Shown here: piece after piece, positions 27,081 to 43,443 of the stretch
Layout of the letters: the number at the start of each line of letters is the position of its first letter
Numbering within the stretch: position 1 is the first letter of the stretch
Assembly: GCF_001639105.2 (NCBI RefSeq)
Contig: NZ_CP028902.1
Span: 249,619-313,618 of the forward strand
Direction of reading: 5' to 3'
DNA length: 64,000 nt
Origin: Azospirillum humicireducens
GTDB lineage: Bacteria; Pseudomonadota; Alphaproteobacteria; Azospirillales; Azospirillaceae
Made by a program: the position numbers and the translations under genes
The notes under the pieces: generated by a model
Seen by the model: the letters and a program-made list of their open reading frames with translations, nothing else
Databases searched by the model: none
Told to the model about the DNA's origin: nothing

Positions 27081-27401
27081 GACTTCAGGCGCGCAATGTC
27101 CTGGAACTGGACCTGCCCCGCCGGAGTCTTCATCACCCCAGCAATCCCCAGGCCTGTTCGGTCCGGCCGGTCAGCATGACGCACGCTCTCCGGCGTCTCC
27201 GGACAGGTCCAGTTTACCCTGACCGTTGATTTATGGCGGAAATCCAGAATTCAGACTGCGGCAAGTAAATGTCTGATTGCTTGATGAACTGGTCGTAATA
27301 CATCTTATTGGGGTTGGTCCTAGATATTTTCGGCATCATCGCATGTGGTACACGGAGAAGATCGCGGAGGAAGACACTTCCGCGCCTCCTGGAGCCGACG
27401 A
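27081..27401. other. 321-bp gap between the GH3 gene and the chemotaxis operon
   Basis: No gene is supported. The left part holds a 112-bp segment bounded by 11-bp inverted repeats. The right part (27220-27350) is AT-rich and must contain the chemotaxis-operon promoter, but no canonical -35/-10 pair stands out. Confidence 0.6.
27105..27216. mobile_element. 112-bp MITE-like segment with 11-bp terminal inverted repeats
   Basis: AACTGGACCTG (27105-27115) is exactly inverted as CAGGTCCAGTT (27206-27216), and the adjoining inner bases (CCCCGCCGGAG versus TCCGGAGACGCCGGAG read inward) are also alike. The ends resemble IS3-type termini rich in GGACCTG. No transposase and no clear target duplication are seen. 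Confidence 0.4.
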
Positions 27402-27725
27402 ATGTCCGACTCAAGCCCACAGTCCACGGTTGTTTGCGAAGGGCCGGCGACGATCACATCCGTCGAAGCCATCTGCAACCACTTGCATCAGGCACTTCAA
27501 ACCGCCTCGCTCGTCGAGGTCGACTGTCGATCGGTCACAGAGGTGGATGTCTGCTTTCTGCAAGCCCTGATCTCGGCTCGGGTTGTGGCAGAACGGCGCG
27601 GAGTGGACCTGCGGATGCGGCAGCCGCTTGCCCGGACGCTCTCCGACGCACTGGAGCGCTGCGGCCTCGTCGCGAAATCCGGGGCGCCGCGCCCGGACCA
27701 GGAATTTTGGGTTGGGAAGGTATAA
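27402..27725 (+). CDS. STAS-domain protein, first gene of the chemotaxis operon
   Basis: A 107-residue protein from the ATG at 27402 (GGAG site). It is one STAS domain: TITSVEAICNHLHQALQTAS, SLVEVDCRSVTEVDVCFLQA and VVAERRGVDLRMRQPLARTL. STAS proteins of anti-anti-sigma type carry a phosphorylatable Ser/Thr after the conserved Asp (DSSGL or DTxxLQ). Here the segment is DVCFLQ, so phosphorylation control of the classical type is unlikely. It is 4 bp from cheY and clearly in the operon. Similar STAS genes accompany alternative chemotaxis clusters, but their role is not established. Confidence 0.88.
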   Translation: MSDSSPQSTVVCEGPATITSVEAICNHLHQALQTASLVEVDCRSVTEVDVCFLQALISARVVAERRGVDLRMRQPLARTLSDALERCGLVAKSGAPRPDQEFWVGKV

Positions 27726-27729
27726 AGAC

Positions 27730-28098
27730 ATGACGAAATCGATCCTTGCCGTCGATGATTCCGCAAGCATGCGACAGATGGTCAAACTGACCCTGTCTTC
27801 CGCAGGCTATCAGGTGATGGAGGCCGCCGACGGGCGCGACGCCTTGAGCAAGGCCAAGTCCGGCAGCTTCAACATGGTGCTGACCGACCTGAACATGCCG
27901 AACATGGACGGCTTGACGCTGATCCGCGAATTGCGGACCCTCCCGGCCTATCGCGGCGTTCCGATCGTCTTCCTGACCACGGAGTCGGATGCCGGGAAGA
28001 AGGCCGAAGCCAAGGCGGCCGGCGCCACCGCCTGGATCGTAAAGCCGTTCCAGCAGGACCAGCTGCTGGGCGTCGTCCGCAAGATCGTCGGCGCATGA
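27730..28098 (+). CDS. cheY: CheY response regulator
   Basis: A 122-residue single-domain receiver. The acidic pair is in SILAVDDSASMRQMVKLTLS, phospho-Asp53 is in MVLTDLNMPNMDG, the Thr switch is in IVFLTTESD, and the Lys switch is in AWIVKPFQQDQL. It should be phosphorylated by the CheA encoded next, whose start overlaps its stop (ATGA). It is closest in style to CheY proteins of non-flagellar-class or alternative Che operons (PNMDGLTLIRELR). The output may be motility or another process. Confidence 0.95.
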   Translation: MTKSILAVDDSASMRQMVKLTLSSAGYQVMEAADGRDALSKAKSGSFNMVLTDLNMPNMDGLTLIRELRTLPAYRGVPIVFLTTESDAGKKAEAKAAGATAWIVKPFQQDQLLGVVRKIVGA

Positions 28099-30107
28099 GC
28101 AGCGCCGATCCAGGCCAGGTCTTCCGCGAAGAGGCGGCGGAACTGCTGGCCGATCTCGAAACCGCGCTGCTTCAGCTGGAGCAGAACCCCGACGATCGCG
28201 AGCCGCTCGACACGGCGTTCCGTGCTTTGCACACGATCAAGGGCTCCGGCTCGATGTTCGGGTTCGAGGCCGCGGCGAGCTTCACCCACCACCTGGAAAG
28301 CGCGTTCGATCGGATGCGCAAGGGCGAACTGACCGCCACGCCGGCAATGATCGGCATCGCGCTTGCCGCCAAGGACCACATCCGCATCCTGATCGACGAT
28401 CCAGCCAATGCCGACACAGCGGCCGGCGAACGGATCCTGGCCCGGCTGGCCGAACAGAGCGGCAGCGCAACGATGCCGGCGCCGCATCGTCAGGAGCCTG
28501 ACGATGCGGACGATCGGGCGACTTGGCGGGTCCGTTTCAAGCTCGCTCCCGACGCGCTGGAGCGCGGAACCAACCCGTTGCTGCTGCTCGACGAGCTGCG
28601 CGGGTTGGGGGATGCCGAAATCGTCGCCGTGACCGATGACGTTCCCCCGCTGGAGGAGCTGGAGCCGACCCGTTGCCACATCGCGTGGGACGTGCTTCTT
28701 ACCACCACCAGTCCGCGGTCGACCATCGAAGACGTGTTCATCTTCGTCATCGACGAAACCGAACTGACCATCGAACCCGTCCTTGCATCCTCTCCCACGC
28801 CGGCGCCGGCGCCGACGATGGTTTGCGATCTCCCCGATCCGTCGGTGCCGACGCCGCCGGACCCTGTCCAGCCCGTCACCCAGCCGCCCCAATCGAAGGC
28901 GGATGCGGGTCCGGAAAAGGGGAAAGCCCAGCCGGTAGCCAATTCGATCCGCGTGCCGGCGGAACGGCTCGACGATCTGATGGATCAGGTCGGCGAACTG
29001 GTGATCGCCCACGCCCGCCTGAAGCAGCTCATTTCCGACAGTGTCGATCTTCAGATCAAGTCCGTTACCGAAGAGATCGAGCGGTTGTCCAACGGGTTGC
29101 GCGACATCACCATGGGCATCCGCATGGTTCCGGTGGAAACGCTGTTCGGCCGGTTCCGCCGGCTTGTCCGCGATCTTTCGCAGGAACTCGGCAAGGACGT
29201 GCTCCTGACCATGTCCGGCGAGGAGACCGAGCTGGACAAGACGATGATCGAGCGGCTGAACGATCCGCTCGTCCACATCATCCGCAACAGCCTGGACCAC
29301 GGGCTGGAACCGGCGGCCGACCGGCTGGCGGCGGGCAAGCCGCGGCAGGGCCGCATCCACCTGTCGGCGCGTCATGCGGGAACCCGCGTGCTGATGACCA
29401 TCCGCGACGACGGGCGCGGGCTGGACCGCGACCGCATCCGGGCCAAGGCCGAGGAGCAGGATCTGATCCCGCCCGGCGCCAAGCTTTCGGACGCAGAGCT
29501 GTTCCAGCTGATCTTCCATCCCGGTTTCTCGACCGCGCGGACATTGACCAGCGTATCCGGGCGAGGCATCGGCATGGACGTCGTCAAGCGCACGGTCGAC
29601 GGGCTGCGCGGGACCATCGAGGTCTCCAGCACCGCCGGAGGCGGCACCGAGATCACCCTCGGCCTGCCGCTGACGCTGGCGATCATCGACGGCCTGCTGG
29701 TCCGGGTCGGTCAGGGGCGCTACGTCATCCCGCTGTTCGCCGTCGAGGAATGCGTGGAACTGCCGCCGGACGTCGAGCGCCGCCACGCCGGCCGCAATTT
29801 CCTGAACATCCGCGGCGCGCTGGTGCCGTTCCTGCGGCTGCGCGACAGCTTCAACGTCCGCCATCCCCCCGATCCCTATCAGAAGATCGTCATCATCTCT
29901 TCCGGCGACAAGCGGGTCGGGCTGGTGGTGGATCAGGTTCTGGGCGACCACCAGACCGTCATCAAGTCGATGTCGAAGCTCCACGCCGACGTCGCCAACT
30001 TCTCCGGCGCCACCATCCTCGGCGACGGTTCGGTGGCTCTGATCCTGGACATCGCCCAGATCGTCGCCGCCGGACAGATCCAGGAGCAGCGGCGCGAAGC
30101 CTCTTAA
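28095..30107 (+). CDS. cheA: CheA chemotaxis histidine kinase
   Basis: A 670-residue kinase. The Hpt domain carries His46 in ALHTIKGSGSMFGFEAA. A P2-like middle region (~130-230) precedes a proline-rich linker (TPAPAPTMVCDLPDPSVPTP). The dimerisation helices contain ERLDDLMDQVGELVIAHARL. The ATPase boxes are NPLVHIIRNSLDHGLEP-like (NDPLVHIIRNSLDHG), TIRDDGRGLDRDRI, GFSTARTLTSVSGRGIGMDV and GGGTEITLGLPLTLAI. A C-terminal CheW-like domain ends at residue 670. It phosphorylates CheY and CheB of this operon under control of the receptor. The domain set is complete and no receiver is fused. Confidence 0.97.
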   Translation: MSSADPGQVFREEAAELLADLETALLQLEQNPDDREPLDTAFRALHTIKGSGSMFGFEAAASFTHHLESAFDRMRKGELTATPAMIGIALAAKDHIRILIDDPANADTAAGERILARLAEQSGSATMPAPHRQEPDDADDRATWRVRFKLAPDALERGTNPLLLLDELRGLGDAEIVAVTDDVPPLEELEPTRCHIAWDVLLTTTSPRSTIEDVFIFVIDETELTIEPVLASSPTPAPAPTMVCDLPDPSVPTPPDPVQPVTQPPQSKADAGPEKGKAQPVANSIRVPAERLDDLMDQVGELVIAHARLKQLISDSVDLQIKSVTEEIERLSNGLRDITMGIRMVPVETLFGRFRRLVRDLSQELGKDVLLTMSGEETELDKTMIERLNDPLVHIIRNSLDHGLEPAADRLAAGKPRQGRIHLSARHAGTRVLMTIRDDGRGLDRDRIRAKAEEQDLIPPGAKLSDAELFQLIFHPGFSTARTLTSVSGRGIGMDVVKRTVDGLRGTIEVSSTAGGGTEITLGLPLTLAIIDGLLVRVGQGRYVIPLFAVEECVELPPDVERRHAGRNFLNIRGALVPFLRLRDSFNVRHPPDPYQKIVIISSGDKRVGLVVDQVLGDHQTVIKSMSKLHADVANFSGATILGDGSVALILDIAQIVAAGQIQEQRREAS

Positions 30108-30158: not shown

Positions 30159-30611
30159 ATGGCCGTCACCGGGACAGAGACCTTCGAAGCATTGACCCTG
30201 GGGCTGGGCGGCGAGATCTTCGCCATCGACGCCAATTCGGTCCACGAAATCCTGGACATCGTGCCGCAGACCGAGGTTCCGGGCGCGCCGCCCCTGGTCA
30301 GCCATCTGATCAACGTCCGCGGCAAGGTGGTGCCGCTCGCCGACCTGCGGATCCGGTTCGGCATGGAGTGCACGCCGCCGACCATCGACACCCGCATCGT
30401 CGTCGTCGAGATCGAACTGGACGAGGAGCCGACGGTGGTCGGGCTGCTGGCCGACAAGGTCCATGAGGTGACCAGCATCGCCGGCGCGTCGATCGAGGAC
30501 ACCCCGGACATCGGCATGCGCTGGAACCCTGAGCTGATCAAGGGAATCGGCAAGCGCGGCGACGACTTCATCGTCATTCCGGACATCGTCCGGATCTTCA
30601 CGACCCACTGA
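30159..30611 (+). CDS. cheW: CheW adaptor, copy 1
   Basis: A 150-residue CheW fold: [60 protein letters not shown] and [20 protein letters not shown]. It bridges the receptor tip and CheA. It is about 50 bp after cheA and 92 bp before the receptor gene. A second, diverged CheW follows the receptor, so two different adaptors may tune array assembly. Confidence 0.95.
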
Positions 30612-30703: not shown

Positions 30704-32917
30704 ATGCGTATCTCAATCAAAGCGAAAATCATCGCGGCATTCGGCACGGTCATCCTGCTGTCCGCCGCCACCGCTGGCATCGCCCTCAACGGCCTGTCGG
30801 ACCTGAACGAGAAGATCGACCAGCTGGTCAATGTCTCGTCACAGCGGATCAATGTCGCCCGCCAGATGCCGGGCACGGTTTATCTGATCCAGCGGGAGGA
30901 AAAGAACTTTCTGCTGTCCAGCAGCGACGAGGACATGGACCGCTTCGACAAGGCGATGCTGGCTCGCCGTGAGGAGTTCAAAGGGATTCTGGAACAGTAT
31001 CGGCGCGTCGCGGATGCTGAAGGCCTCCGCAAGCTGGCACAGATCGAAGCGCTGATGGTGGAGTTCGGTACCGCTCAGGACAAAGTGCGTTCGATCGGTC
31101 GAATCCGGTCGAACGCCAAGGGTGCCGACCTGCTGACAGGCGCCGGCAACGATGCCGTTATCGCGGCGCAGGAGGCCTTGCGCCCGCTACTCGACCGTGT
31201 CGAGAACGGGACGCAGGCGACGGCGGAACAGATCGCCATCGCTCATCTGATCCGGCGCATGACGACCGATTGGGGGACCGCGCGCATCATCGTCAGAAAC
31301 TCCCTGCTCATTTCCGACGACGCGGCGACGGCGGCGGCACTCAAACCGCTGCCCGATCTGCTGAAGAATATCTCCCAGCAACAGGACCGCATCCGCAACC
31401 GTTTGACGTCAGACGAGGATCTTCGGGCCTTCAACGTCTTCGTCGAGCGCTATCATGTCTATGAACGCTTCACCGACGAGGTGATCGCGCTGTCCTTGAA
31501 GAACACCGAGAACAAGGCGCTGGCGATTTCCATCGGCGACGTGCGTACCGCCGCCACCAAGCTGGGCCAGGCGGCGAACGAACTGGTCGCCGACGCCGAA
31601 AAGGGCATGGCGGCGGACAAGCAGACGGCCGAGGCCACCTACGCCCAGATCCGTGCGATCACCATCGGTGCCGTTGCCCTTGCCCTGCTGATCGCCATCG
31701 CCGCCGGCGCCTACATCGCGATTTCCATTGCCCGCGGCCTCGGCAAGGCGGTCGGGCTGGCCGATGCCGTGGCGGTCGGCGACCTCAGCCAGAAGGTTGA
31801 AGTGTCGAGCGACGACGAGATCAAGGATCTGGTGACGGCGCTCAACAGCATGACCGCCAACCTGCGGGCGACCGCGGATGTGGCCGAGGAGATTTCCCGC
31901 GGCAACCTGACCGTCCAGGCCCGTCCGCTGTCCGACAAGGACACGCTGGGCATGGCGCTGGAAACCATGCTGGAGAAGCTGCGCGGCGTCGTGACCGATG
32001 CGCTGTCCGCCTCGGACAATGTGGCGGCGGGCAGCCAGGAGCTGTCGGCCAGCTCCGAGGAACTGTCGCAGGGCTCCACCGAACAGGCGTCGGCCGCCGA
32101 GCAGGCTTCGGCCTCGATGGAGGAGATGGCCGCCAACATCAAGCAGAATGCCGAGAACGCCACCCAGACCGAGAAGATCGCCCGCCAGTCGTCCAAGGAC
32201 GCCCAGGCCTCGGGCGAGGCGGTCAACAAGGCGGTGCAGGCGATGCAGACCATCGCCGAAAAGATCAGCATCGTCCAGGAGATCGCCCGCCAGACCGACC
32301 TCTTGGCGCTGAACGCCGCGGTGGAGGCGGCGCGGGCCGGCGAGCATGGCCGCGGCTTCGCCGTCGTCGCGTCCGAAGTGCGCAAGCTGGCCGAGCGCAG
32401 CCAGGGGGCGGCGGCGGAAATCAGCTCCCTGTCGGCGGAATCGACCAAGATCGCCCAGGAGGCCGGACAGATGCTGTCCCGGCTGGTGCCCGACATCCGC
32501 AAGACCGCCGAGCTGGTCGAGGAGATCAGCGCCGCCTGCCGCGAGCAGGACATCGGCGCCGAGCAGATCAACCAGGCGATCCAGCAGCTCGACAAGGTGA
32601 CGCAGCAGAACTCCAGCGCGTCGGAACAGATGGCGGCGACATCGGAGGAGCTGTCCTCGATGGCGACCCAGCTGCAGGACACGATCTCCTACTTCACGGT
32701 CGAGGAGAAGGCCTCCGCCCGCAGCATCGCCCGGACCCCGGCACCCCAGGCGGCTCCCGCAAGGCCGGTGCCCGCCGCCGCCCGCCGCCCCGCCGCGGTC
32801 ATCACCATGTCCCACAAGCCGGCGGCGAAGCCGAACGGCAAGGACCGCGGGGTGAAGATCGCTCTCGAGGGCGGCAACGGGCCCGACGATATGGATGCCC
32901 GCTACACCGCGATGTGA
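30704..32917 (+). CDS. Methyl-accepting chemotaxis protein with double HAMP
   Basis: A 737-residue transmembrane receptor. TM1 is near 9-30 ([20 protein letters not shown]). The helical periplasmic domain spans about 280 residues (HBM-like, [20 protein letters not shown]). TM2 is near 322-345 ([20 protein letters not shown]). Two consecutive HAMP-like units follow ([20 protein letters not shown] and [20 protein letters not shown]). The signalling hairpin tip is [40 protein letters not shown]. The C-terminus lacks a CheR-binding pentapeptide. The Ala/Pro-rich tail ([20 protein letters not shown]) is a flexible linker. It is probably the dedicated receptor of this operon; its ligand is unknown. 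Confidence 0.95.
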
Positions 32918-33017: not shown

Positions 33018-33515
33018 ATGACCAGCGCGACCGCGCCCCGCGAACCGGCGCAATATGTGACGATCGGCATCGATCGCGAAGTGTTCGCCATTGAGGTCGG
33101 CATCGTGCGCGAGATCCTCGACCTCCAGCCGATCACCCGCCTGCCGCATGCCCCGCCCTTCCTGGTCGGCATGATCGACGTGCGGGGACAGGGGGTGCCC
33201 ACCGTCGATCTGCGGGTCAAGCTCGGCCTGCCGGCGGTACAGCCCACCGCCAACACCCGGATCATCGTGCTCGACGTGCCGCAGCAGGGGCAAGGGGCTT
33301 CGCTGACCGTCGGTGTGGTTGCAGACCGCGTGTTCGAAGTCACGTCGCTCGATGGCCAGGACCTGGAAACGCCGCCCCAGGTGGGGGGGCGCTGGCGGTC
33401 CGACTGCATCCAGGCAATCGGCCGCTCCAACGGAACCTTCGTCATCGTCTTCGACATCGCCCGTCTGTTCGCACAGGACGACGTGGCCCTGCTGACCATG
33501 GCGGACGCCGCATGA
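33018..33515 (+). CDS. cheW: CheW adaptor, copy 2
   Basis: A 165-residue CheW protein from the ATG at 33018: QYVTIGIDREVFAIEVGIVR, EILDLQPITRLPHAPPFLVG, MIDVRGQGVPTVDLRVKLGL and VGVVADRVFEVTSLDGQDLE. The frame is open further upstream, but that segment does not resemble CheW. Its stop overlaps the cheR start (ATGA). It differs enough from copy 1 to suggest separate roles in receptor-kinase coupling. Confidence 0.95.
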   Translation: MTSATAPREPAQYVTIGIDREVFAIEVGIVREILDLQPITRLPHAPPFLVGMIDVRGQGVPTVDLRVKLGLPAVQPTANTRIIVLDVPQQGQGASLTVGVVADRVFEVTSLDGQDLETPPQVGGRWRSDCIQAIGRSNGTFVIVFDIARLFAQDDVALLTMADAA

Positions 33516-34405
33516 TGATCGATGCCGACGTCCCGCCGCTCGCCGACGGAGCGGCACCGCCGTCATCCCGTGATGGCCTGTCGCACCGTGATTTCAGCCG
33601 GCTGGCCGCCATCATCGAAACCCACGCCGGCATCCGCATGCCGCCGACCAAGCGGACGATGGTGGAAGGCCGGCTGCGGCGCCGGTTGCGCAGGCTGGAC
33701 CTGCCGGACCTGAACGCCTATTGCCGCCATGTGCTGGACGGCGACGGGCTGGAGAGCGAACTGGTCGACCTGATCGACGCGGTCACCACCAACAAGACCG
33801 ACTTCTTCCGCGAGATCGACCATTTCCGCTACCTGATGGGCACGGCCATTCCGGCCTTGTCCCGCCTTCCCCATCATCCCGGCCGCGACCGACCGCTGAA
33901 GATATGGAGCGCCGCCTGCTCGACCGGGGCGGAACCCTACACGGTGGCCATGCTGCTGTTGGAGCAGGAGCGTGCGGGCATGCCGATCCGCCATGAGATC
34001 ATCGCGACCGACATCTGCACGGAGGCGCTGGCGGCGGCCCGGCTGGGGGTTTATCCCGCCGAAATGGCCAGAATGGTGCCCGAACCCTTCGCCTCCCGCT
34101 ATCTGATGCGGTCGCGCGACCCGGATGATCCCACGGTCAGGCTGGTGCCGCGGGTCCGCCAGTCCGTCCGCTTCGGCCGCCTCAACGTGATGGAGCCGGC
34201 CTATCCGGTCCCGACGGACATGGATGTGATCTTCTTCCGCAACATCCTGATCTATTTCGACAAGACGACGCAGAAAAAGGTGCTGGAGAAGCTGTGCGGC
34301 CATCTGCGCCCCGGCGGCTGCCTGTTCGTCGGCCACAGCGAGACCATCACCAACATGGATCTGCCGCTGAAGCAGGCCGGATCCGCCATCTTCATCCGGA
34401 GCTGA
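33512..34405 (+). CDS. cheR: CheR protein-glutamate methyltransferase
   Basis: A 297-residue enzyme. The N-terminal helical domain (DFSRLAAIIETHAGIRMPPT, KRTMVEGRLRRRLRRLDL) is followed by the SAM-binding fold (LKIWSAACSTGAEPYTVAML, HEIIATDICTEALAAARLGV) and the motif MDVIFFRNILIYFDKTTQKK. It methylates receptor glutamates with S-adenosylmethionine. Start overlaps the cheW stop, and cheB begins 3 bp after its end, so the adaptation pair is translated together. Confidence 0.96.
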   Translation: MMIDADVPPLADGAAPPSSRDGLSHRDFSRLAAIIETHAGIRMPPTKRTMVEGRLRRRLRRLDLPDLNAYCRHVLDGDGLESELVDLIDAVTTNKTDFFREIDHFRYLMGTAIPALSRLPHHPGRDRPLKIWSAACSTGAEPYTVAMLLLEQERAGMPIRHEIIATDICTEALAAARLGVYPAEMARMVPEPFASRYLMRSRDPDDPTVRLVPRVRQSVRFGRLNVMEPAYPVPTDMDVIFFRNILIYFDKTTQKKVLEKLCGHLRPGGCLFVGHSETITNMDLPLKQAGSAIFIRS

Positions 34406-35506
<1,101 letters not shown>

Positions 35507-35554: not shown

Positions 35555-37351
35555 ATGGACAGCATCCTTGACAGGACGGCCTTCCGGGACGTCACCGGCC
35601 TTGGCGTCGGGCTGGTCCGGTCGCTGAAGGCCGACCTGCACGATGCATCGGCACCGATCGAAGCCGCGTTCCTGGTGGTCGGCGAGACCTTGTCGCGGAC
35701 GCTGGACCTTATGGCAGTCATCGGCGACCGGTTCCGTGCCCTGTCCGTGCTGATCGACAATGAAGACGGCGTCGCCGCGTCCCGCCGGCTGGGACAGGTC
35801 CGCGAGGTGACCGACGGGCTGGCGGCCAACCTCCGGCAAACGCTGGATGACCTGACCGGGCTGGATGGGTCGGGCGCCGAGATGGCGGCCCTGCTCGGCA
35901 ACCTGTCGCAGATCATCGGCGAGATCACCGGCCTGGCGATCAACGCAAAGATCCAATCGGTCCAGATCCGCTCCGGCGCCGATGATTTCAGCGTCTTCAA
36001 CCGCGAGATCGACCGGCTCCACCGACTGGCCGAGGAAGCGACGACACAGGCGATCGGCCATCTGGCGGCTTTGCAGAATGCCATTTCGGCGGCAAAGGAC
36101 GGTGCCGCCATCTTCCAGCGCGACAACCGGACGCGTCTGGACGATGTCGGACGACGGCTGCAGGGCAGCCTCGACAAGCTGACGGCCTGCCGCAGCACTG
36201 CACAGCAGGCCGCGCGGCGCTTTGCCGGCCGTGTCGGCGAGGTCAGCCAGCGGATCGCCGGCTGCATCAGCGATCTCCAGGTCGGCGACCTCACCTGTCA
36301 GCGGCTTTCCCACATCGGTACGGCGCTGGACGTGCTCGAACTGCTGGCGGAGTCGCCTCAGGCGGCCGCGCTGCCGCCGGATCTGCAATGGCTCGCTGAG
36401 TTGGACGACCGTCACCGGATCGACCTGTCGGCGGCGATCTGTGCCTTGCAGATTCGCCAATATGGGGATGCGAACGGCGATTTCGGCGGCCAGGTGGCCT
36501 CCCTGAAGGCGAATTTGGAAGCGCTTGTCCGGGATGCCGACGCCATCGCCCGGGAGGCGATGGACCTGTTCGGTTCGAGTCTCGCCTTGCCCGATGCCGG
36601 TGAGGACATCGGTGACTCCGTTCTGGCCGGCGTCGCAAACGACGTCGACCGCGCCCTGGACCTTCTGCATCGCTATTGCCGGTCCGACGATGTCCTGCGG
36701 GAGCGGGTGGTCGAGGTTTCCCATGGTTTCGACGCAATGGGCCGGGATGTCCTCGCCATTCGGTCCATCGACACCGACATGCGGTTGATGGGGCTGAACA
36801 CGACGCTGAAATGCACGCGCCTTGGACCGGAGGGGCGGGGACTCGGCGTTGTGGCGCAGGAACTGCGCGCGTGCAGCCGGCGGACCGAGGACGTGTCGAA
36901 GGCAATCACCTCGGCGATCCAGGCCGCCAACCGGCGCGCGACCCTGTTGGACCAGAGGTCAGGCGCCAATCATCGGGTGGCCAGGGAACTGGCTGAAGAG
37001 ATGTCGAATTCGATGGATTGCCTGAAACGGTTGCATGCCGATCAGATGCACTCCCTGTCGGTCCTGACCGGAAACTGCCTGGATGTGTCCAAACTTCTGA
37101 CCGGGACCATCGACCGGCTTGCCATCGAGCGGCGGCTGGAAGAATCCGCCCAACGCTTCGTCGAGCGGGTCGAGGCGGCCTCCAGGATGGGGGAAATTCA
37201 TGCTCCCCACATCGCCGACGATCTGAATCGCCTATTTGCCAAACTCTACACCGCGGAACGGGAGCGGAAAACGCATTCCCAACTCTTCGGCGGCATTTGC
37301 CTGCAGGAGAGCCAGGAACAGAACGGAACTGTCGACGACTTCTTTTTCTGA
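35555..37351 (+). CDS. Soluble receptor-tip-like protein with a CheZ-like motif, last gene of the che operon
   Basis: A 598-residue mostly helical protein with no membrane span, 48 bp after cheB (GAGG site). I do not recognise a named family. Two segments resemble MCP hairpin tips: residues ~121-160 (GEITGLAINAKIQSVQIRSG) and ~405-447 (RLMGLNTTLKCTRLGPEGRG, then LGVVAQELRACSRRT). Between them, residues 236-260 contain ISDLQVGDLTCQRLSHIGTA, which holds the D-x-x-x-Q pattern (Asp245, Gln249) in the same DLTxQ context as the CheZ phosphatase. The C-terminus is QNGTVDDFFF, reminiscent of the CheY-binding VDDLL tail of CheZ. No CheZ, CheC or CheX is otherwise encoded here. A CheY-P phosphatase or cytosolic array component is the best guess. 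Confidence 0.75.
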   Translation: MDSILDRTAFRDVTGLGVGLVRSLKADLHDASAPIEAAFLVVGETLSRTLDLMAVIGDRFRALSVLIDNEDGVAASRRLGQVREVTDGLAANLRQTLDDLTGLDGSGAEMAALLGNLSQIIGEITGLAINAKIQSVQIRSGADDFSVFNREIDRLHRLAEEATTQAIGHLAALQNAISAAKDGAAIFQRDNRTRLDDVGRRLQGSLDKLTACRSTAQQAARRFAGRVGEVSQRIAGCISDLQVGDLTCQRLSHIGTALDVLELLAESPQAAALPPDLQWLAELDDRHRIDLSAAICALQIRQYGDANGDFGGQVASLKANLEALVRDADAIAREAMDLFGSSLALPDAGEDIGDSVLAGVANDVDRALDLLHRYCRSDDVLRERVVEVSHGFDAMGRDVLAIRSIDTDMRLMGLNTTLKCTRLGPEGRGLGVVAQELRACSRRTEDVSKAITSAIQAANRRATLLDQRSGANHRVARELAEEMSNSMDCLKRLHADQMHSLSVLTGNCLDVSKLLTGTIDRLAIERRLEESAQRFVERVEAASRMGEIHAPHIADDLNRLFAKLYTAERERKTHSQLFGGICLQESQEQNGTVDDFFF

Positions 37352-37379: not shown

Positions 37380-37554
37380 AGGCCGACAGCTGCCATGACC
37401 TGCCGGTCGCTCCCGATCTGCTGGGCCAAGCCTTCCAGGTGGGCGAGCCCGCGATCGGGTCTGGCTGACCAACATCACCTGCTACAATCAACAGCGCGCA
37501 CACTCGGCCATCGGCTACAGAACACCCGAGCAGGCCGCGCGACAATCCGTATGA
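37380..37554 (+). pseudogene. IS3-family orfB remnant with internal deletion and frameshift
   Basis: Pieces of an IS3-type transposase remain: CHDLPVAPDLLGQAFQVGEP (about 37395-37454), then in another frame WLTNITCYNQQRAHSAIGYR and TPEQAARQSV with a stop at 37552-37554. The central catalytic DDE region of roughly 150 residues is missing, so the element is dead. It lies 30 bp past the last chemotaxis gene. Confidence 0.75.
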
Positions 37555-37564
37555 ACCTGTGCCT

Positions 37565-37766
37565 ACTGAACAAGGCCAAGATCAACACCGAGGTGATCAG
37601 GCGCCGCGCACCCTGGCGCATCGGGGACGCCGCCGAGTTCGCCATGCTCGAATGGGTGGACTGGTTCAATCACCGGCGCCTGCTCGAACCCATCGGCAAT
37701 ATCCCTCCCGCCGAAGCCGAAACAGGCTACTATGCCCTAGCTGAGGACGCCGCCATAGCGGCGTGA
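37565..37766 (+). pseudogene. C-terminal remnant of a second IS3-family transposase
   Basis: The frame reads INTEVIRRRAPWRIGDAAEF, then AMLEWVDWFNHRRLLEPIGN and IPPAEAETGYYALAED, matching the C-terminus of IS3 orfB proteins. The N-terminal and central parts are absent. Its natural stop at 37764-37766 is followed by an IS3-like end (37784-37805). Confidence 0.85.
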
Positions 37767-37783
37767 CCCAACCAAACCGGCAT

Positions 37784-38808: not shown

Positions 38809-41800
38809 TCAGGCGGTTCCCGGCTTCAGGGACCGGTCCGTCAGGGCGTGCCGTATGGCAGTCAGCAGAGGCTCCGGGCTCAGTGGCTTGTGCAGCAACA
38901 GGAAACCGCTGGCGCTCGCTTCCCGGATGCGCGCGGGCGAGGTGTCGCCGGTCAGAAGAATTCCGGGCAGCCGGGCGGCGAAGTGCCGCTCCAGCCGGCG
39001 GATTGTCTCCGATCCGGTTTCCGTGCCCTTCAGCCGGAAATCGGCGATGACCAAATCCGGCACCCCGTTCCCCAACCGCTCTACCGCCGTGTCGCCATCG
39101 GATGCCGCCACCACATCGTAGCCCAATTCATGGAGGAAGGCGGCGACACCGTCGAGAACGGTCGGGTCGTCGTCGATCACCACCACCCGCTCGCCGTTGC
39201 CGCCCTCGGATACGGCCATCTCCTCGTCCTTCGGAAGGGAATCGTCCGGACTGGCCAACGGAACCAGGATCTCGAACATCGATCCCTGCCCTGGCGCCGA
39301 TTTGACCCGTATCGGGTGATGGAGCAGCGCGGCAAGGCGTTCCACGATGGAAAGCCCCAGCCCCAGCCCCTGCCGCCGGTCACGCTCCGGATTGTCGACC
39401 TGATGGAACTCCTCGAAGATCGATGCCAGCTGGTTCGGCGGAATGCCGCGCCCGGTGTCCCAGACCTGAATGCGCAGGTTCAGCCCGGCGCGACGGCACC
39501 CCACCAGGATCCGACCCCGGTCGGTGTATTTGATCGCGTTGGCGATGAAGTTCCGCAGGATGCGCTCCAGCAGCTTGGGATCGCTCCGCACCGACAGGCT
39601 CGTCCGAACGCTGTGCAATGTCAGCTCGGCAGCCTCGGCCAACGGCGATAGCTCGGTGCACAGCGAATCGATCATCGTCTGGACCGGACACGACCGGAGC
39701 GTCACCTGGATGATGCCGGCGTCAAGGCGCGACACATCCAGGATGTCGTCGAGCATGGCGGTCATGGCGCCCAGCGCGTTGCCCATGCTGACCAGCAGTT
39801 TTGCCGCCGCCTCGCCCTGCGGCTGCATCGCCACCAGATGATGGAACATCAGCAGGGCCTGGACAGGCTGACGCAGGTCGTGGCTGGCAGCGGCAAGAAA
39901 TCGGGTTTTGCTGGCGCTTGCCAGTTCGGCGGCAGCCTTGGCGGCCGCGAGGGCTTCGCGCACGCGCACCTGCTCTGTGACGTCTTCCATCGCCAACAGG
40001 ATCAGCCGGCCCGCCTGATTGAGCCGGCGGGCGTTCAGCAGCAGGGTTCGGCGTCCCTCGGCGCCTTCGTCGCCGACACCCCGACCGATGGTCAGTTCCA
40101 GCGCATCGACGACCGTGCCATCGGGTATGATCCGTTCCAGTGCCAGGCGCAGTTCGGGATCGGCCAGCAGACCGCCGGCCGTCTCGGCCAGTTGGAGGCC
40201 GAGCACGCCGTCCGGCGTGGTGGCGAAGGATCGGTGGAAGGCCGCACTCGCGCCGACCACCCTCAGCATCTCGTCCAGCACCAGAAGCGGTTCGCGGACC
40301 GTGTCGACGATGGCCTGGGCGAAATCGCGCTCAGCCCGCGCCGTGCGCAGCACTCCCGCCCGTTCGATGACCAGCCCCAGCACGCTGGCGATGGCCTGGA
40401 CGAATTCCAGGTCGGCATCGCTGAACCGTCCGGCCTTGCGGCTCAGAACCGTGAGAATGGATGGTCCGCGTGCCGCGCCGCCGAAGGGAACCGACAGACC
40501 GCTGACGAAGTGGCTGCCCGATAGCGCCATGGAGGAGCGGACACGTTGATCGGTGGCGAAATCCTCCACAATAGACGGCTGGCGGGACCGGAACACCCGT
40601 CCGACCAGTGTCGACATGTCGCTGGGGATCCGGACGGCAGGCTCCTTTGGAACGGAGAGGCCGGCACTGCCGAGCAGGACCAGATCGTCAGCGTCCCCGG
40701 TGCGCTGGCCCGATGGATCCTCGCCGGGACCGAGGATGGCGACGCCGTCCGCTCCCAGCCCTTCGGCAATCAGGCGGGCTGCTTCCGCCAGTGTATCCGA
40801 CCCGTCCGCTCCGACGAGGTCCTTGCGTCCGAGATCGGCGATCAGCTTGTACTGGCGGGCCTGCAGAGCCATGGCCAGGCTGGTGCGCTTCAGCGGCGTC
40901 ACGTCGCTGAAGGTGATCACGACCCCCTCCCCCCGGCCTTGCTGGGTCCGGTAGGGCTGGATGCGGCGCAGGAAGGTCGCGTCGTCATCCGTCGACACTT
41001 CGCGTTCCGCCGGCATCAGGGATGACAGCACCGACCGGATGTCGGGCAGCAGGCAAGGATCTGAAAAATGCCGGGCGATGTCGGTGATCAGGCGCCCGGT
41101 ATCCTGCGGCAGCAGAGCGAAAAGCCGGGTCGCCGACGGCGTGAAACGTTTGATCCGCAGGTCTGACGACAGGAAGACCGTGGCGATGTCGGTGCTGCTC
41201 AGCAGATTGCCCAGATCGTTGGTGGTCGCTTCCAGCTCGTCGACCTTTTCATGCAGCTGGGAGTTCAGCGTGCTGAGTTCCTCGTTGAGGGATTGAAGCT
41301 CTTCCTTGGATGTCTCCAGCTCCTCCGTGGTCGACTGGTACTCCTCGCCGATCGACAGGATCTCCTCGTTGGCGACCCGCAGCGCCTCGCTGGTGGCACT
41401 GAGTTCTTCGACGGTGTCGTTCAACTCCTCACGGGTCATGCGCAGCTCGCTTTCGAGCTGTTCGACACCGTCAATTTCGATCGGCGGCGGCGCGGACTCG
41501 GCGACCGGTGTGCTTGGTGCAGCGTGGTCCGCCGTGAATGTCACCAGAAGCAGGTCACTGCCGGCCCGTGGGAAACGCACCGGGATAACCAGAACGGTCA
41601 CCGGCACCACAATGCCGTGACGCTTGTGCCGGATTCCGGAGATTTGAACCCGGCCATGCGAGGCGAGCGCCTGTGCGACGGCGCGGCGGAGCTGCAGGCG
41701 CAATTCCCCGCGTGCCATCGCCGTCAGATCCCAGGGCGGTTCTCCCGTCGGCAGGTCGAGGAAATCGCCGGTCGGACCGAAGAGATACTGGATGCGATGC

Positions 41801-43443
41801 AGCCCGTCGATCAGAACTGCCGCCGGCGCGTATTCAAGCAGCAGGGCCTGTCGGATGATGTCCGCCGGGCCGGTGCCGCGCAAGGGGGTGGGCAGTGTCG
41901 GCACCGGGACCGCAGACCGCCCGCCCGTCGGCGGGACCGCCATCGCACTGCTGCGCGTCGCACCGATCTTCCGGTAAAGGCGCCATTTTTTTGAAAGAGG
42001 TGCGAACAGGTTGGAGAGCGTGTCAAGGTTCTCCGCCGTACCGAGGAACAGGCCGCCATTGTCCAACAAGGCGAAATGGAACAGGGCGAAGATGGCCTTC
42101 TGCACGTCCGGCTCGATATAGATCAGCATGTTGCGGCAACTGATCAGGTCGAGCTTGGAAAAAGGCGGATCGCTGAGCAGATCGTGCTGGGCGAAGGAAA
42201 CCACATCGCGCAATGGCTTGGCGACCTTGTAGCCGTCCTCGACCTTGGTGAAGAAGCGGGCGAGCCGTTCGACCGACACGTCGACCGTTATGGTTTCGGG
42301 ATACAGACCGGTGCGGGCGACAGTCAGCGCCCGATTGTCCACGTCGGTTGCGAAGACACGGAAGCCGGGGGATACGCCGCTCCGTGCGCAGGCCTCCATC
42401 AACAGGATAGCGATGGAGTAAGCCTCTTCCCCGGTGGCGCAGGCCGGGACCCAGACGCGGATCGGCTTGCCCGCCGGCTGGTTCCGCACCAGCGGGACGA
42501 CGTACTCTCCGGCCAGGATGTCGAACGCCGGGCCATCGCGGAAAAAGCGCGTCACGCTGATCAGGATATCGCGGGACAGCAGTTCGATTTCGGCCGGGTG
42601 GGTGCCCAGAAGGGCCCGGTATTCCGTCATCTCGGCGATATGGTGAATCCCCATGCGCCGTTCGATGCGGCGGATCAGCGACCGCGGCTTGTAAGCCTTG
42701 TGATCGCGCTTGGTGTGCGCGCTCAGCAGATCGAGAATGCCGTCCAGTGCGCCGTCCGGCGCATCGGCCTTCTGAACCGTTGCCGGGCCGATATAGGGTT
42801 GGTGGACGAATTCGACGATGGCACCAGGCATGCGCTCCGGCGGCAGGATATAATCGGCCATGCCGGTGGCGATGGCGCTGCCCGGCATGCCGTCGAATTC
42901 GGCGGTCGTCGGATCCTGCACGACCACCAGCCCACCGCATTCCTTGATCGAACGCAGTCCATTGGTGCCGTCGGCGCCGGTACCGGACAACACGACGCAG
43001 ATCGCCTTCTCCTGCTGGTCGGTTGCCAGTGTGCGGAAGAAGATGTCGATTGGCAGGGTCGCGTCGACAGACTGCCGCGATTCACGGATGCGCAGTTGGC
43101 CGGCCTCCATCGTCGGCAACCGACCTGCCGGAGCGATGTAGATGTGATCGGCCTCCAGCGGAATCCCGTCATGAGCAGTATGGACCGGCAGCACCGTCAC
43201 ATTCTTCAACAGGTCGGCAAGCAATCGTTCATTGTTCGGAATCCGGTGCTGAATCACCACAAAGGCCAAGCCGCAGTCAGCCGGTACCGCTCTAAGCAGG
43301 GCCGTGATCGCTTTGAGGCCGCCAGCCGAGGCACCGATACCGACGATCGCCAAAGGGCCGGGCCGCATGCGCCGCCGTTCATTCTGATCCATGCGGGGAA
43401 TGTCCTGACAATGACGATCCGTGCCTTCATCCGCTGACATCAT
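38809..43443 (-). CDS. CheB-CheR-PAS-GAF-PAS hybrid histidine kinase with C-terminal receiver
   Basis: A 1544-residue protein with a strong GGGAGG site. Order: CheB methylesterase (~30-215, Ser39 in GIGASAGG, His66 in VIQHR, Asp158 in SGTGADGTNG); CheR (~235-490, VWVPACATGEEAYSIAILLM, SCRNMLIYIEPDVQKAIFAL); PAS; a long coiled coil (ELRMTREELNDTVEELSATS onward); PAS (~750-860); GAF (~895-1045); PAS. The HisKA is FLAAASHDLRQPVQALLMFH. The ATPase includes FIANAIKYTDRGRILVG and RRQGLGLGLSIVERLAALLH. The receiver includes DLVIADFRLKG. It is probably soluble. It likely couples receptor-type methylation chemistry to phosphorelay, but its target is unknown. Confidence 0.95.
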   Translation of the reverse strand: MMSADEGTDRHCQDIPRMDQNERRRMRPGPLAIVGIGASAGGLKAITALLRAVPADCGLAFVVIQHRIPNNERLLADLLKNVTVLPVHTAHDGIPLEADHIYIAPAGRLPTMEAGQLRIRESRQSVDATLPIDIFFRTLATDQQEKAICVVLSGTGADGTNGLRSIKECGGLVVVQDPTTAEFDGMPGSAIATGMADYILPPERMPGAIVEFVHQPYIGPATVQKADAPDGALDGILDLLSAHTKRDHKAYKPRSLIRRIERRMGIHHIAEMTEYRALLGTHPAEIELLSRDILISVTRFFRDGPAFDILAGEYVVPLVRNQPAGKPIRVWVPACATGEEAYSIAILLMEACARSGVSPGFRVFATDVDNRALTVARTGLYPETITVDVSVERLARFFTKVEDGYKVAKPLRDVVSFAQHDLLSDPPFSKLDLISCRNMLIYIEPDVQKAIFALFHFALLDNGGLFLGTAENLDTLSNLFAPLSKKWRLYRKIGATRSSAMAVPPTGGRSAVPVPTLPTPLRGTGPADIIRQALLLEYAPAAVLIDGLHRIQYLFGPTGDFLDLPTGEPPWDLTAMARGELRLQLRRAVAQALASHGRVQISGIRHKRHGIVVPVTVLVIPVRFPRAGSDLLLVTFTADHAAPSTPVAESAPPPIEIDGVEQLESELRMTREELNDTVEELSATSEALRVANEEILSIGEEYQSTTEELETSKEELQSLNEELSTLNSQLHEKVDELEATTNDLGNLLSSTDIATVFLSSDLRIKRFTPSATRLFALLPQDTGRLITDIARHFSDPCLLPDIRSVLSSLMPAEREVSTDDDATFLRRIQPYRTQQGRGEGVVITFSDVTPLKRTSLAMALQARQYKLIADLGRKDLVGADGSDTLAEAARLIAEGLGADGVAILGPGEDPSGQRTGDADDLVLLGSAGLSVPKEPAVRIPSDMSTLVGRVFRSRQPSIVEDFATDQRVRSSMALSGSHFVSGLSVPFGGAARGPSILTVLSRKAGRFSDADLEFVQAIASVLGLVIERAGVLRTARAERDFAQAIVDTVREPLLVLDEMLRVVGASAAFHRSFATTPDGVLGLQLAETAGGLLADPELRLALERIIPDGTVVDALELTIGRGVGDEGAEGRRTLLLNARRLNQAGRLILLAMEDVTEQVRVREALAAAKAAAELASASKTRFLAAASHDLRQPVQALLMFHHLVAMQPQGEAAAKLLVSMGNALGAMTAMLDDILDVSRLDAGIIQVTLRSCPVQTMIDSLCTELSPLAEAAELTLHSVRTSLSVRSDPKLLERILRNFIANAIKYTDRGRILVGCRRAGLNLRIQVWDTGRGIPPNQLASIFEEFHQVDNPERDRRQGLGLGLSIVERLAALLHHPIRVKSAPGQGSMFEILVPLASPDDSLPKDEEMAVSEGGNGERVVVIDDDPTVLDGVAAFLHELGYDVVAASDGDTAVERLGNGVPDLVIADFRLKGTETGSETIRRLERHFAARLPGILLTGDTSPARIREASASGFLLLHKPLSPEPLLTAIRHALTDRSLKPGTA

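Follow-up and report, generated by a model that had tools for sequence, protein, structure and literature searches.

A soluble tandem chemoreceptor hairpin in an Azospirillum humicireducens chemotaxis operon is a candidate CheY-P phosphatase

We analyzed a 64,000-nucleotide stretch of the genome of Azospirillum humicireducens (the window; NCBI RefSeq assembly GCF_001639105.2, contig NZ_CP028902.1, positions 249,619 to 313,618 of the forward strand), in which an open reading frame (ORF) at window positions 35555 to 37351 on the forward strand closes a chemotaxis operon. This focal ORF has 598 codons with no internal stop and encodes a protein of 598 amino acids. By sequence comparison, the protein is a tandem duplication of a chemoreceptor hairpin related to the McpA-like proteins of F7 chemotaxis systems. 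By analogy with CheZ, we think it probable that it acts as a phosphatase of phosphorylated CheY (CheY-P), and it may be the missing off-switch of its operon. This reading is based on the invariance of Asp245 and Gln249, the C-terminal tail, the spacing between receptor tip and motif, a predicted outward-facing stripe of residues, the linkage to receiver-domain genes, cheB, and CheA, and the lack of CheZ, CheX, or CheC matches on the contig. An original prediction, made from the letters of the sequence alone, had described a 598-residue ORF with two tip-like segments, a DLTCQ motif at residues 245 to 249, and a terminal VDDFFF, and its numbers are right to within one residue. Four papers cited below (PMC7184735, PMC7534058, PMC7750401, and PMC12654446) were available in part, and statements drawn from them refer to those parts.

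Conservation of the candidate active site and tail

We collected homologs of the focal protein in three sets: alignment A1 (13 rows, same-genus homologs), alignment A2 (41 rows), and a second tandem set of 15 loci from a separate genome search. A full-length homolog was found in 13 of 37 Azospirillum genomes (the source genome and 36 others), with identities of 31 to 84% besides the source copy, and residues D245, Q249, D594, and F597 are invariant in A1. A one-genome-per-species scan gave 39 named loci, alphaproteobacterial by title except for three titled only Proteobacteria. These loci were fetched with the patterns KC[TAG]RLG.[AE]G[RK] and DFSVF[NST].EI, which inflates the conservation at both sites (41/41 rows of A2 have Lys419 and Cys420); the DxxxQ and tail positions played no part in the fetching. 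Two loci were excluded from A2: L041, whose reading frame is broken, and L052, whose frame breaks ahead of its end. Among 398 genomes of the phylum, 16 matches reached at least 220 bits, namely, the focal gene and 15 others, one of which (in genome G441) lies outside the class. The second set shares one gene with the first, listed as L075 in the former and as L059 in the latter.

The original prediction had named beforehand, as a result that would refute it, a lack of conservation of Asp245 and Gln249 among homologs. Both residues are identical in 41/41 rows of A2 and in 15/15 members of the second tandem set, as are Q242, R250, and H253; the script pattern applied to the second set requires the Q, D, Q, and R, not the His, and all 15 loci matched it. 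DxxxQ is present in 38 of the 39 named loci, the exception being the broken frame of L041. A2 has 23 invariant columns, which include these five residues together with Y565, T566, and E570, and Asp245 is its sole invariant Asp. This conservation strengthens the functional idea of a CheZ-type phosphatase, which appears plausible.

The CheZ-like tail was scored with a strict pattern, [VIL]D[DEASGNQ][LFIMC][LFI], sought in the last 16 residues, and with a looser one. The strict pattern fits 21 of 41 rows of A2 and 3 of 15 members of the second set (expected per tail, ~0.00 and 0.01), and the looser pattern, in which form the claimed tail was borne out among the homologs, fits 39 of 41 and 8 of 15 (expected, 0.11 and 0.08). 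The same patterns fit 21 and 24 of 28 CheZ proteins used as a control. By locus, the tail is present in 35 of the 39 named loci, having been lost through the frame breaks in L041 and L052 and being absent from L072 and L073. A hydrophobic tail is found in 14 of 15 members of the second set (L089 ends early), four of which end in DDGIELF.

Ahead of the linker that precedes the tail, the Tyr, Thr, and Glu of the element at residues 565 to 574 are kept in 14 of 15 members of the second tandem set, the remaining member being truncated. This element usually reads YTMxxERxIH, and a similar one occurs in four of the single-hairpin relatives described below (L133, L134, L154, and L155). Weak relatives of the focal protein also occur on plasmids of Rhizobium, Agrobacterium, Shinella, and Methylosinus, where they are annotated as a chemotaxis protein, a type VII secretion target, or a hypothetical protein or carry no annotation.

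Architecture of the focal protein

The AlphaFold2 model of the focal protein is all-helical, with a mean predicted local distance difference test score (pLDDT) of 85.4 and a predicted template modeling score (pTM) of 0.65. Residues 146 to 266 form a single helix that contains DxxxQ, and residues 582 to 598 are modeled with low confidence, with a short helix at 594 to 597. A model of the single-hairpin relative L137 was poor (mean pLDDT, 68.7) and was set aside. No transmembrane-like stretch was evident (maximum Kyte-Doolittle value over 19 residues, 1.39). The only Pfam match below an E value of 0.01 was to MCPsignal at residues 400 to 465, and Pfam found no sensor domain or HAMP domain and no CheC or CheX profile match in the protein. 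The profile searches proposed with the original prediction therefore divided: the CheZ profile (PF04344) gave no match, in a search whose filters drop most matches above an E value of 0.1, and the MCPsignal match, at 34.3 bits, fell just under its cutoff of 34.6. NCBIfam returned receptor equivalogs with scores far under their cutoffs, and sequence searches of the PDB placed receptors best, followed by designed or unrelated helical proteins. Among the 50 of 675 Foldseek matches listed, receptors were the credible ones, accompanied by unspecific coiled coils.

Profiles of the N-terminal and C-terminal halves of the focal family align tip on tip over 198 columns (E value of 7.3e-6, one comparison), which points to an internal duplication. 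The tip of hairpin 1 opens with GEITGLAINAKIQSVQ (residues 122 to 137), and that of hairpin 2 lies in RLMGLNTTLKCTRLGPEGRG (residues 410 to 429) and LGVVAQELRACSRR (residues 430 to 443). As a comparison group we took 88 receptor-domain matches in two genomes, the source genome and G121; 30 with loci were examined, and one (L185) had no tip. The 29 ordinary receptors match both halves of the focal family by hhalign (E values of 6.4e-6 for the N-terminal half and 6.5e-10 for the C-terminal half). The receptor-like architecture originally proposed stands, in that the tips align with receptor tips.

Both tips are altered relative to those of ordinary receptors. In Escherichia coli receptors, the Glu at the tip (N+4 in NAxxEAAR) makes a trimer contact; 28 of 29 ordinary receptors have this Glu, and neither tip of the focal protein does. 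At the corresponding position of hairpin 2, residue 419, A2 has Lys in 41/41 rows, and the second tandem set has Lys in seven, Arg in six, Gly in one, and a gap in one. In hairpin 1, the A2 rows carry Gln (20), Glu (15), Ala (4), or Thr (2), with Gln in the window protein, and the tip reads DFSVF instead of GRGFAVV. Among 20 single-hairpin relatives, the position is Glu in 13 and Val in 7.

These tips bear on whether the protein could be a structural, double-headed cytoplasmic receptor like DosM of the Vibrio cholerae F9 system, with its two tips stapling array layers together. The two proteins are alike, by description, in joining two receptor signaling units in one soluble chain, and the two signaling domains of DosM span two CheA/CheW layers (PMC7534058). 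We consider a DosM-like role quite unlikely for the focal protein. Both of its tips are noncanonical (DFSVF versus GRGFAVV in one, Lys or Arg versus Glu in the other), an objection weakened by the 7 of 20 single-hairpin relatives that also lack the tip Glu. Such a role also leaves DxxxQ and the tail unexplained, and the McpA-like cousins of the protein are dispensable for F7 arrays (PMC7184735). DosM differs as well in being described as a structural array receptor, with no DxxxQ or CheY-binding peptide mentioned in the available part of PMC7534058.

Single-hairpin relatives and the spacing of the motif

The phylum search also yielded single-hairpin proteins of ~325 to 430 amino acids. With one of these, L091, as the query, 23 loci in 21 of 200 genomes passed an E value of 1e-20, and together with L091 and L097 they represent 25 distinct proteins. 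L091 had been selected as a carrier of the motif, so the set does not sample the family at random. Four loci that carry the motif (L139, L142, L151, and L153) fell outside alignment A4 through a script filter; also outside it are L090, L092, and L102, which are the same genes as L155, L135, and L149, and the query L091.

The motif [LMIF]QF[QE]DxxxQ is present in 25/25 distinct single-hairpin proteins. In the 22 relatives measured, the distance from the tip Asn to the Asp of DxxxQ is 115 residues in 20, 116 in L097, and 117 in L141. N130 and D245 of the window protein are likewise 115 residues apart, as are the equivalent residues in 41/41 rows of A2. In the second tandem set, the spacing is 115 in seven members, 111 in seven, and 116 in one, and 9 of the 15 have Thr or Ser in place of the tip Asn. 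Only 2 of the 29 ordinary receptors have a DxxxQ at +113 to +117, neither of them in an LQxxD context. The N-terminal half of the focal family aligns with the single-hairpin family with an E value of 6.5e-18 and with the D and Q in register, and the C-terminal half aligns with it with an E value of 4.7e-16 and with the tails together, which suggests that copy 1 kept DxxxQ and copy 2 kept the tail.

A receiver-domain match lies within ~1.5 kb of 21 of the 25 distinct single-hairpin loci. The gene order at L190 is DxxxQ protein, cheY, cheA, cheW, mcp, cheR, and cheB, which fits an F7 stage 2 cluster with the McpA-like gene in front, as arranged in PMC7184735. By gene order and domain content, the single-hairpin relatives are the McpA-like "receptors" of F7 systems, a group that includes Pseudomonas aeruginosa McpA/CttP/PA0180 and V. 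cholerae VCA1088. The original prediction had suggested an unnamed family; this is not wholly so, since its single-hairpin cousins are identified here with the McpA-like proteins of PMC7184735. The McpA-like proteins and the window protein have in common a homologous hairpin, a DxxxQ equally far from the tip, and a conserved hydrophobic C terminus. They differ in being single hairpins, many with an N-terminal hydrophobic segment, whereas the window protein is soluble and tandem. In F7 stage 1, the order is STAS, cheY, cheA, two cheW genes, an aer2-like receptor, cheR, cheD, cheB, and mcpA (PMC7184735), so the McpA-like gene follows cheB, as the focal gene does here. Likened by gene order, the window operon is similar to that of stage 1, with no cheD and with the receptor gene between the two cheW genes. 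The same paper reports that the C terminus of McpA-like proteins is highly conserved, with a role "yet unclear," that stage 1 and 2 F7 organisms have cheZ in F6 clusters only, and that F7 arrays can form without McpA-like proteins (PMC7184735).

The focal protein might instead be a soluble chemoreceptor of unspecified ligand whose conserved C terminus serves an unrelated docking purpose, with CheR, CheB, or CheD as conceivable partners. MCPsignal matches in 40 of 41 members, at E values of up to 0.1, fit this explanation, as do the treatment of P. aeruginosa McpA/CttP as a receptor (PMC7184735) and a weak match to the HBM sensor domain in one member (E value of 3.9e-4). We regard it as very unlikely: the window protein has no sensor domain or HAMP domain, HAMP is not among the 25 of 54 Pfam families listed for the 41 members, the McpA tail is described in the available part of PMC7184735 as lacking the CheR-tethering pentapeptide, and the invariant DxxxQ would be left unexplained.

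Comparison with CheZ

In CheZ, the Gln of DLTGQ positions the attacking water, the Asp contacts the active-site Lys and Mg of CheY, and the C-terminal peptide binds CheY-P. These roles of the catalytic Asp and Gln and of the tail are partly supported by PMC7750401. The window protein resembles CheZ in having a DLTxQ helix, a linker, and an acidic-hydrophobic C-terminal peptide. The catalytic Asp and Gln are both matched by DLTCQ at residues 245 to 249, and a CheZ-type peptide follows a linker that has low confidence in the AlphaFold2 model. The Gly of DLTGQ is present in 28/28 CheZ proteins (rows picked by motif pattern) and is not conserved in the focal family. CheZ is a dimer of short hairpins (PMC7750401) and has no receptor tip; the window protein has two tips. 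The CheZ family is not among the 25 of 54 Pfam families listed for the 41 members.

Compared with the profile of 28 CheZ proteins by hhalign, the window family reached a probability of 6.8 and its N-terminal half reached 2.5, neither of them significant. The original prediction had pictured a chimera that joins a receptor-like scaffold to a separate CheZ domain. Because DxxxQ is part of the receptor hairpin, with little variation in its distance from the tip, and because the match to CheZ is not significant, we rejected this chimera; the whole protein is a duplicated hairpin by the comparisons above.

The single-hairpin family scored higher against CheZ, with hhalign probabilities of 42 to 82 depending on the columns and the first row used. 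In this alignment, the FQDxxxQ blocks are in register and the tip is skipped. The score of 36.7 compares with a mean of 19.9 (standard deviation, 3.8; maximum, 29.8) for 60 heptad-block shuffles, and the controls scored 24.2 (reversed) and 17.0 (ordinary receptors). One of the 20 members, L134, matches the Pfam CheZ profile with an E value of 4e-5 and 24.0 bits (cutoff, 30.7), with its Asp306 and Gln310 inside the match. These sequence comparisons suggest a common ancestry of the single-hairpin family and CheZ. Three points speak against shared ancestry: with the motif masked, the score is 31.1 and the best region is a different one; unrelated Pfam helical families reach E values of ~1e-4 on the single-hairpin relatives; and the CheZ and single-hairpin alignments were both chosen with motif filters. 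A broader reading, in which the McpA-like single hairpins and the tandem form are all CheY-P phosphatases rather than receptors and CheZ is their shortened, tip-less descendant, is doubtful. The phosphatase group would then be widespread, with single hairpins in several proteobacterial families and the tandem form mostly in alphaproteobacteria, a distribution that we put forward with the same reserve.

Since coiled-coil families give spurious similarity, as the unrelated helical matches to the relatives illustrate, the likeness to CheZ might also be coincidental, with DxxxQ and the tail conserved for folding or bundle capping. This seems extremely improbable to us. The DxxxQ residues are invariant between proteins that are <30% identical, and their predicted orientation is outward; the tail comes after a linker that has low confidence in the model and is probably flexible. 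The outward direction was derived from helical periodicity: D245, Q249, Q242, and H253 point 110 to 161 degrees away from the hydrophobic moment (listed angles for Asp, Gln, Gln242, and His253, 110, 161, 161, and -148 degrees).

Gene neighborhood

We scored the neighborhoods of the homologs with the Che proteins of the window as queries. As the original prediction had anticipated, cheB is a frequent neighbor, being the neighboring chemotaxis gene in 28 of the 39 named loci; it is convergent in five of these (L053, L065, L069, L072, and L073). Another che gene or a receptor gene is the neighbor in six loci, and in the remaining five there was no cheA, cheW, cheR, or cheB match in the flank examined. 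Among 23 genomes of the genus (the source genome and 22 others), the focal gene is present in seven (G000, G002, G004, G007, G010, G015, and G022), the CheA of the operon is present in the same seven, and the other 16 are without both. CheA was counted as present at an identity of at least 60% over nearly the full length; the best match in the other 16 genomes was ~42%.

Three of the five loci with no such match are L050, L051, and L057 (two Telmatospirillum genomes and one Rhodospirillales bacterium), whose homologs lie outside a core che operon, downstream of cheD. In L050 and L057, a MipZ-like ATPase (by Pfam) is encoded between cheD and the homolog, which hints at a positioning system.

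Pfam found no CheZ, CheC, or CheX domain in the operon proteins scanned, in agreement with what had been noticed in the sequence, and a whole-genome search gave no match to any of the three on the contig of the window (C2). The matches elsewhere in the genome comprise four to CheZ and two to CheX, all on contig C1, and two to CheC, one on C1 and one on C6; about 8 kb separate the latter from another CheA on C6.

A model for function

DxxxQ and the tail together are most simply read as CheZ-type catalysis plus CheZ-type tethering on a receptor-derived bundle, that is, as a CheY-P phosphatase that evolved from a chemoreceptor signaling hairpin. The two fused McpA-like hairpins would pack as an intramolecular helical bundle resembling a receptor dimer. 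On its long helix, copy 1 would present Asp245 and Gln249 along one exposed face, together with Gln242 and His253; as in CheZ, Gln249 would position the attacking water and Asp245 would contact the active-site Lys and Mg of CheY. From copy 2, the flexible linker and VDDFFF would capture CheY-P and raise its local concentration. The predicted substrate is the CheY of the same operon.

A different use of the same parts would be a noncatalytic CheY sink or array scaffold, with the C-terminal peptide and the DxxxQ face serving to bind CheY-P. The tail does resemble CheZ tails, the receptor-like tips could dock to an array, and McpA-like proteins have been reported with the F6 array (cited in PMC7184735). 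We judge this unlikely, as a pure binder has no obvious need for both Asp and Gln to be invariant, and their placement at i and i+4 on a predicted exposed stripe is the CheZ arrangement.

Several observations count against the phosphatase reading. Q242, R250, and H253, invariant in the DxxxQ helix, are not shared by CheZ at those positions, so the site may do something else. Position 246, which is mostly hydrophobic, is also directed outward by periodicity, so the helical wheel is only a rough guide. The second tandem set fits the tail patterns in just 3 (strict) and 8 (looser) of its 15 members, and its spacings of 115, 111, and 116 show that the distance from tip to motif is not absolutely fixed. 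The homologs in L072 (Phenylobacterium) and L073 (an alphaproteobacterial metagenome-assembled genome) keep DxxxQ without the C-terminal peptide. No CheZ was among the 50 of 675 Foldseek matches listed, a result of little weight in either direction given the poor discrimination of helical bundles. According to an earlier study cited in PMC7184735, McpA-like proteins are physically part of the F6 array, as would suit a receptor or a scaffold. The CheZ, CheX, and CheC proteins encoded on other contigs of the genome could act in trans. Finally, the catalytic picture is carried over from CheZ.

A precedent for a phosphatase outside the CheZ family is CheT of Sinorhizobium meliloti, a DXXXQ protein with no significant homology to known chemotaxis proteins that enhances the dephosphorylation of one of two CheYs (review, PMC12654446). 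A DXXXQ phosphatase, as CheT illustrates, need not belong to the CheZ sequence family (PMC12654446). Compared by description, CheT and the proposed phosphatase are alike as DXXXQ proteins acting on CheY-P; CheT differs in forming a complex with CheR, and no receptor tips are reported for it in the available part of PMC12654446. Among titles and the beginnings of abstracts, in a search whose coverage excluded most subscription papers, we found no paper proposing a receptor-derived CheY-P phosphatase. If both this protein and its McpA-like cousins are CheY-P phosphatases, this would explain both the role of the McpA C terminus and the missing cheZ of stage 1 and 2 F7 systems, gaps noted in PMC7184735. 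Renaming would then be due for many genes annotated as receptors, and the receptor fold would have given rise to a phosphatase.

Operon and surrounding genes

By Pfam, the operon has the order STAS, cheY, cheA, cheW, mcp, cheW, cheR, cheB, and focal ORF, with 48 bp between the cheB stop and the start of the focal ORF (Table 1). The hairpin fold of the focal protein is common to it and the methyl-accepting chemotaxis proteins (PF00015), from which it differs in its altered tips and in having no sensor domain found.

Table 1. Features of the chemotaxis operon and of the focal protein, in window coordinates
Feature	Position	Strand	Basis or remark
STAS-domain protein, first gene of the cluster	27345..27725	+	Pfam STAS_2, 39.7 bits; start codon uncertain
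CheY response regulator, likely substrate partner	27730..28098	+	Pfam Response_reg, 99 bits
CheA histidine kinase	28095..30107	+	Hpt, H-kinase_dim, HATPase_c, and CheW domains
CheW 1	30159..30611	+	Pfam CheW, 108.3 bits
Chemoreceptor (4HB_MCP_1, HAMP, MCPsignal)	30704..32917	+	Pfam
CheW 2	33018..33515	+	Pfam CheW, 104.5 bits
CheR	33512..34405	+	Pfam CheR, 179.1 bits
CheB	34409..35506	+	Pfam CheB_methylest, 230.3 bits, and Response_reg
Focal protein, soluble tandem receptor hairpin, predicted CheY-P phosphatase, 598 aa	35555..37351	+	
Tip of hairpin 1, residues 122 to 148, GEITGLAINAKIQSVQ...DFSVF	35918..35998	+	Aligns with single-hairpin receptor tips, hhalign E value of 6.5e-18
DLTCQ, candidate catalytic Asp245 and Gln249, residues 245 to 249	36287..36301	+	Conservation, tip spacing
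Tip of hairpin 2, residues 411 to 443	36785..36883	+	Pfam MCPsignal, 34.3 bits; Lys/Arg at 419
YTAERERKTH element, residues 565 to 574	37247..37276	+	Y, T, and E invariant in 41/41
Linker, residues 582 to 592, low confidence, probably disordered	37298..37330	+	pLDDT of <50 across 582 to 598
C-terminal VDDFFF, candidate CheY-P tether, residues 593 to 598	37331..37348	+	CheZ-like tail pattern

A transglutaminase-like gene lies downstream of the focal ORF. Just past the operon, at window positions 37440 to 37770, broken coding pieces resemble by eye the remnant of an IS3-type transposase; Pfam at an E value of 1e-3 gave nothing in the one ORF tested from this region. Farther on, positions 38809 to 43443 of the reverse strand hold a 1,544-amino-acid ORF that resembles, again by eye, a CheB-CheR-PAS hybrid kinase with a receiver domain. 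Elsewhere in the genome (L002, at G000:C1:1721729-1724995), a CheZ-like protein adjoins a second cheZ gene, and its proline-rich C-terminal region repeats a peptide that resembles a CheY-binding one (SQADVDSMFD, three copies of SQADIDSMFD, and a final DQAAIDALFG).

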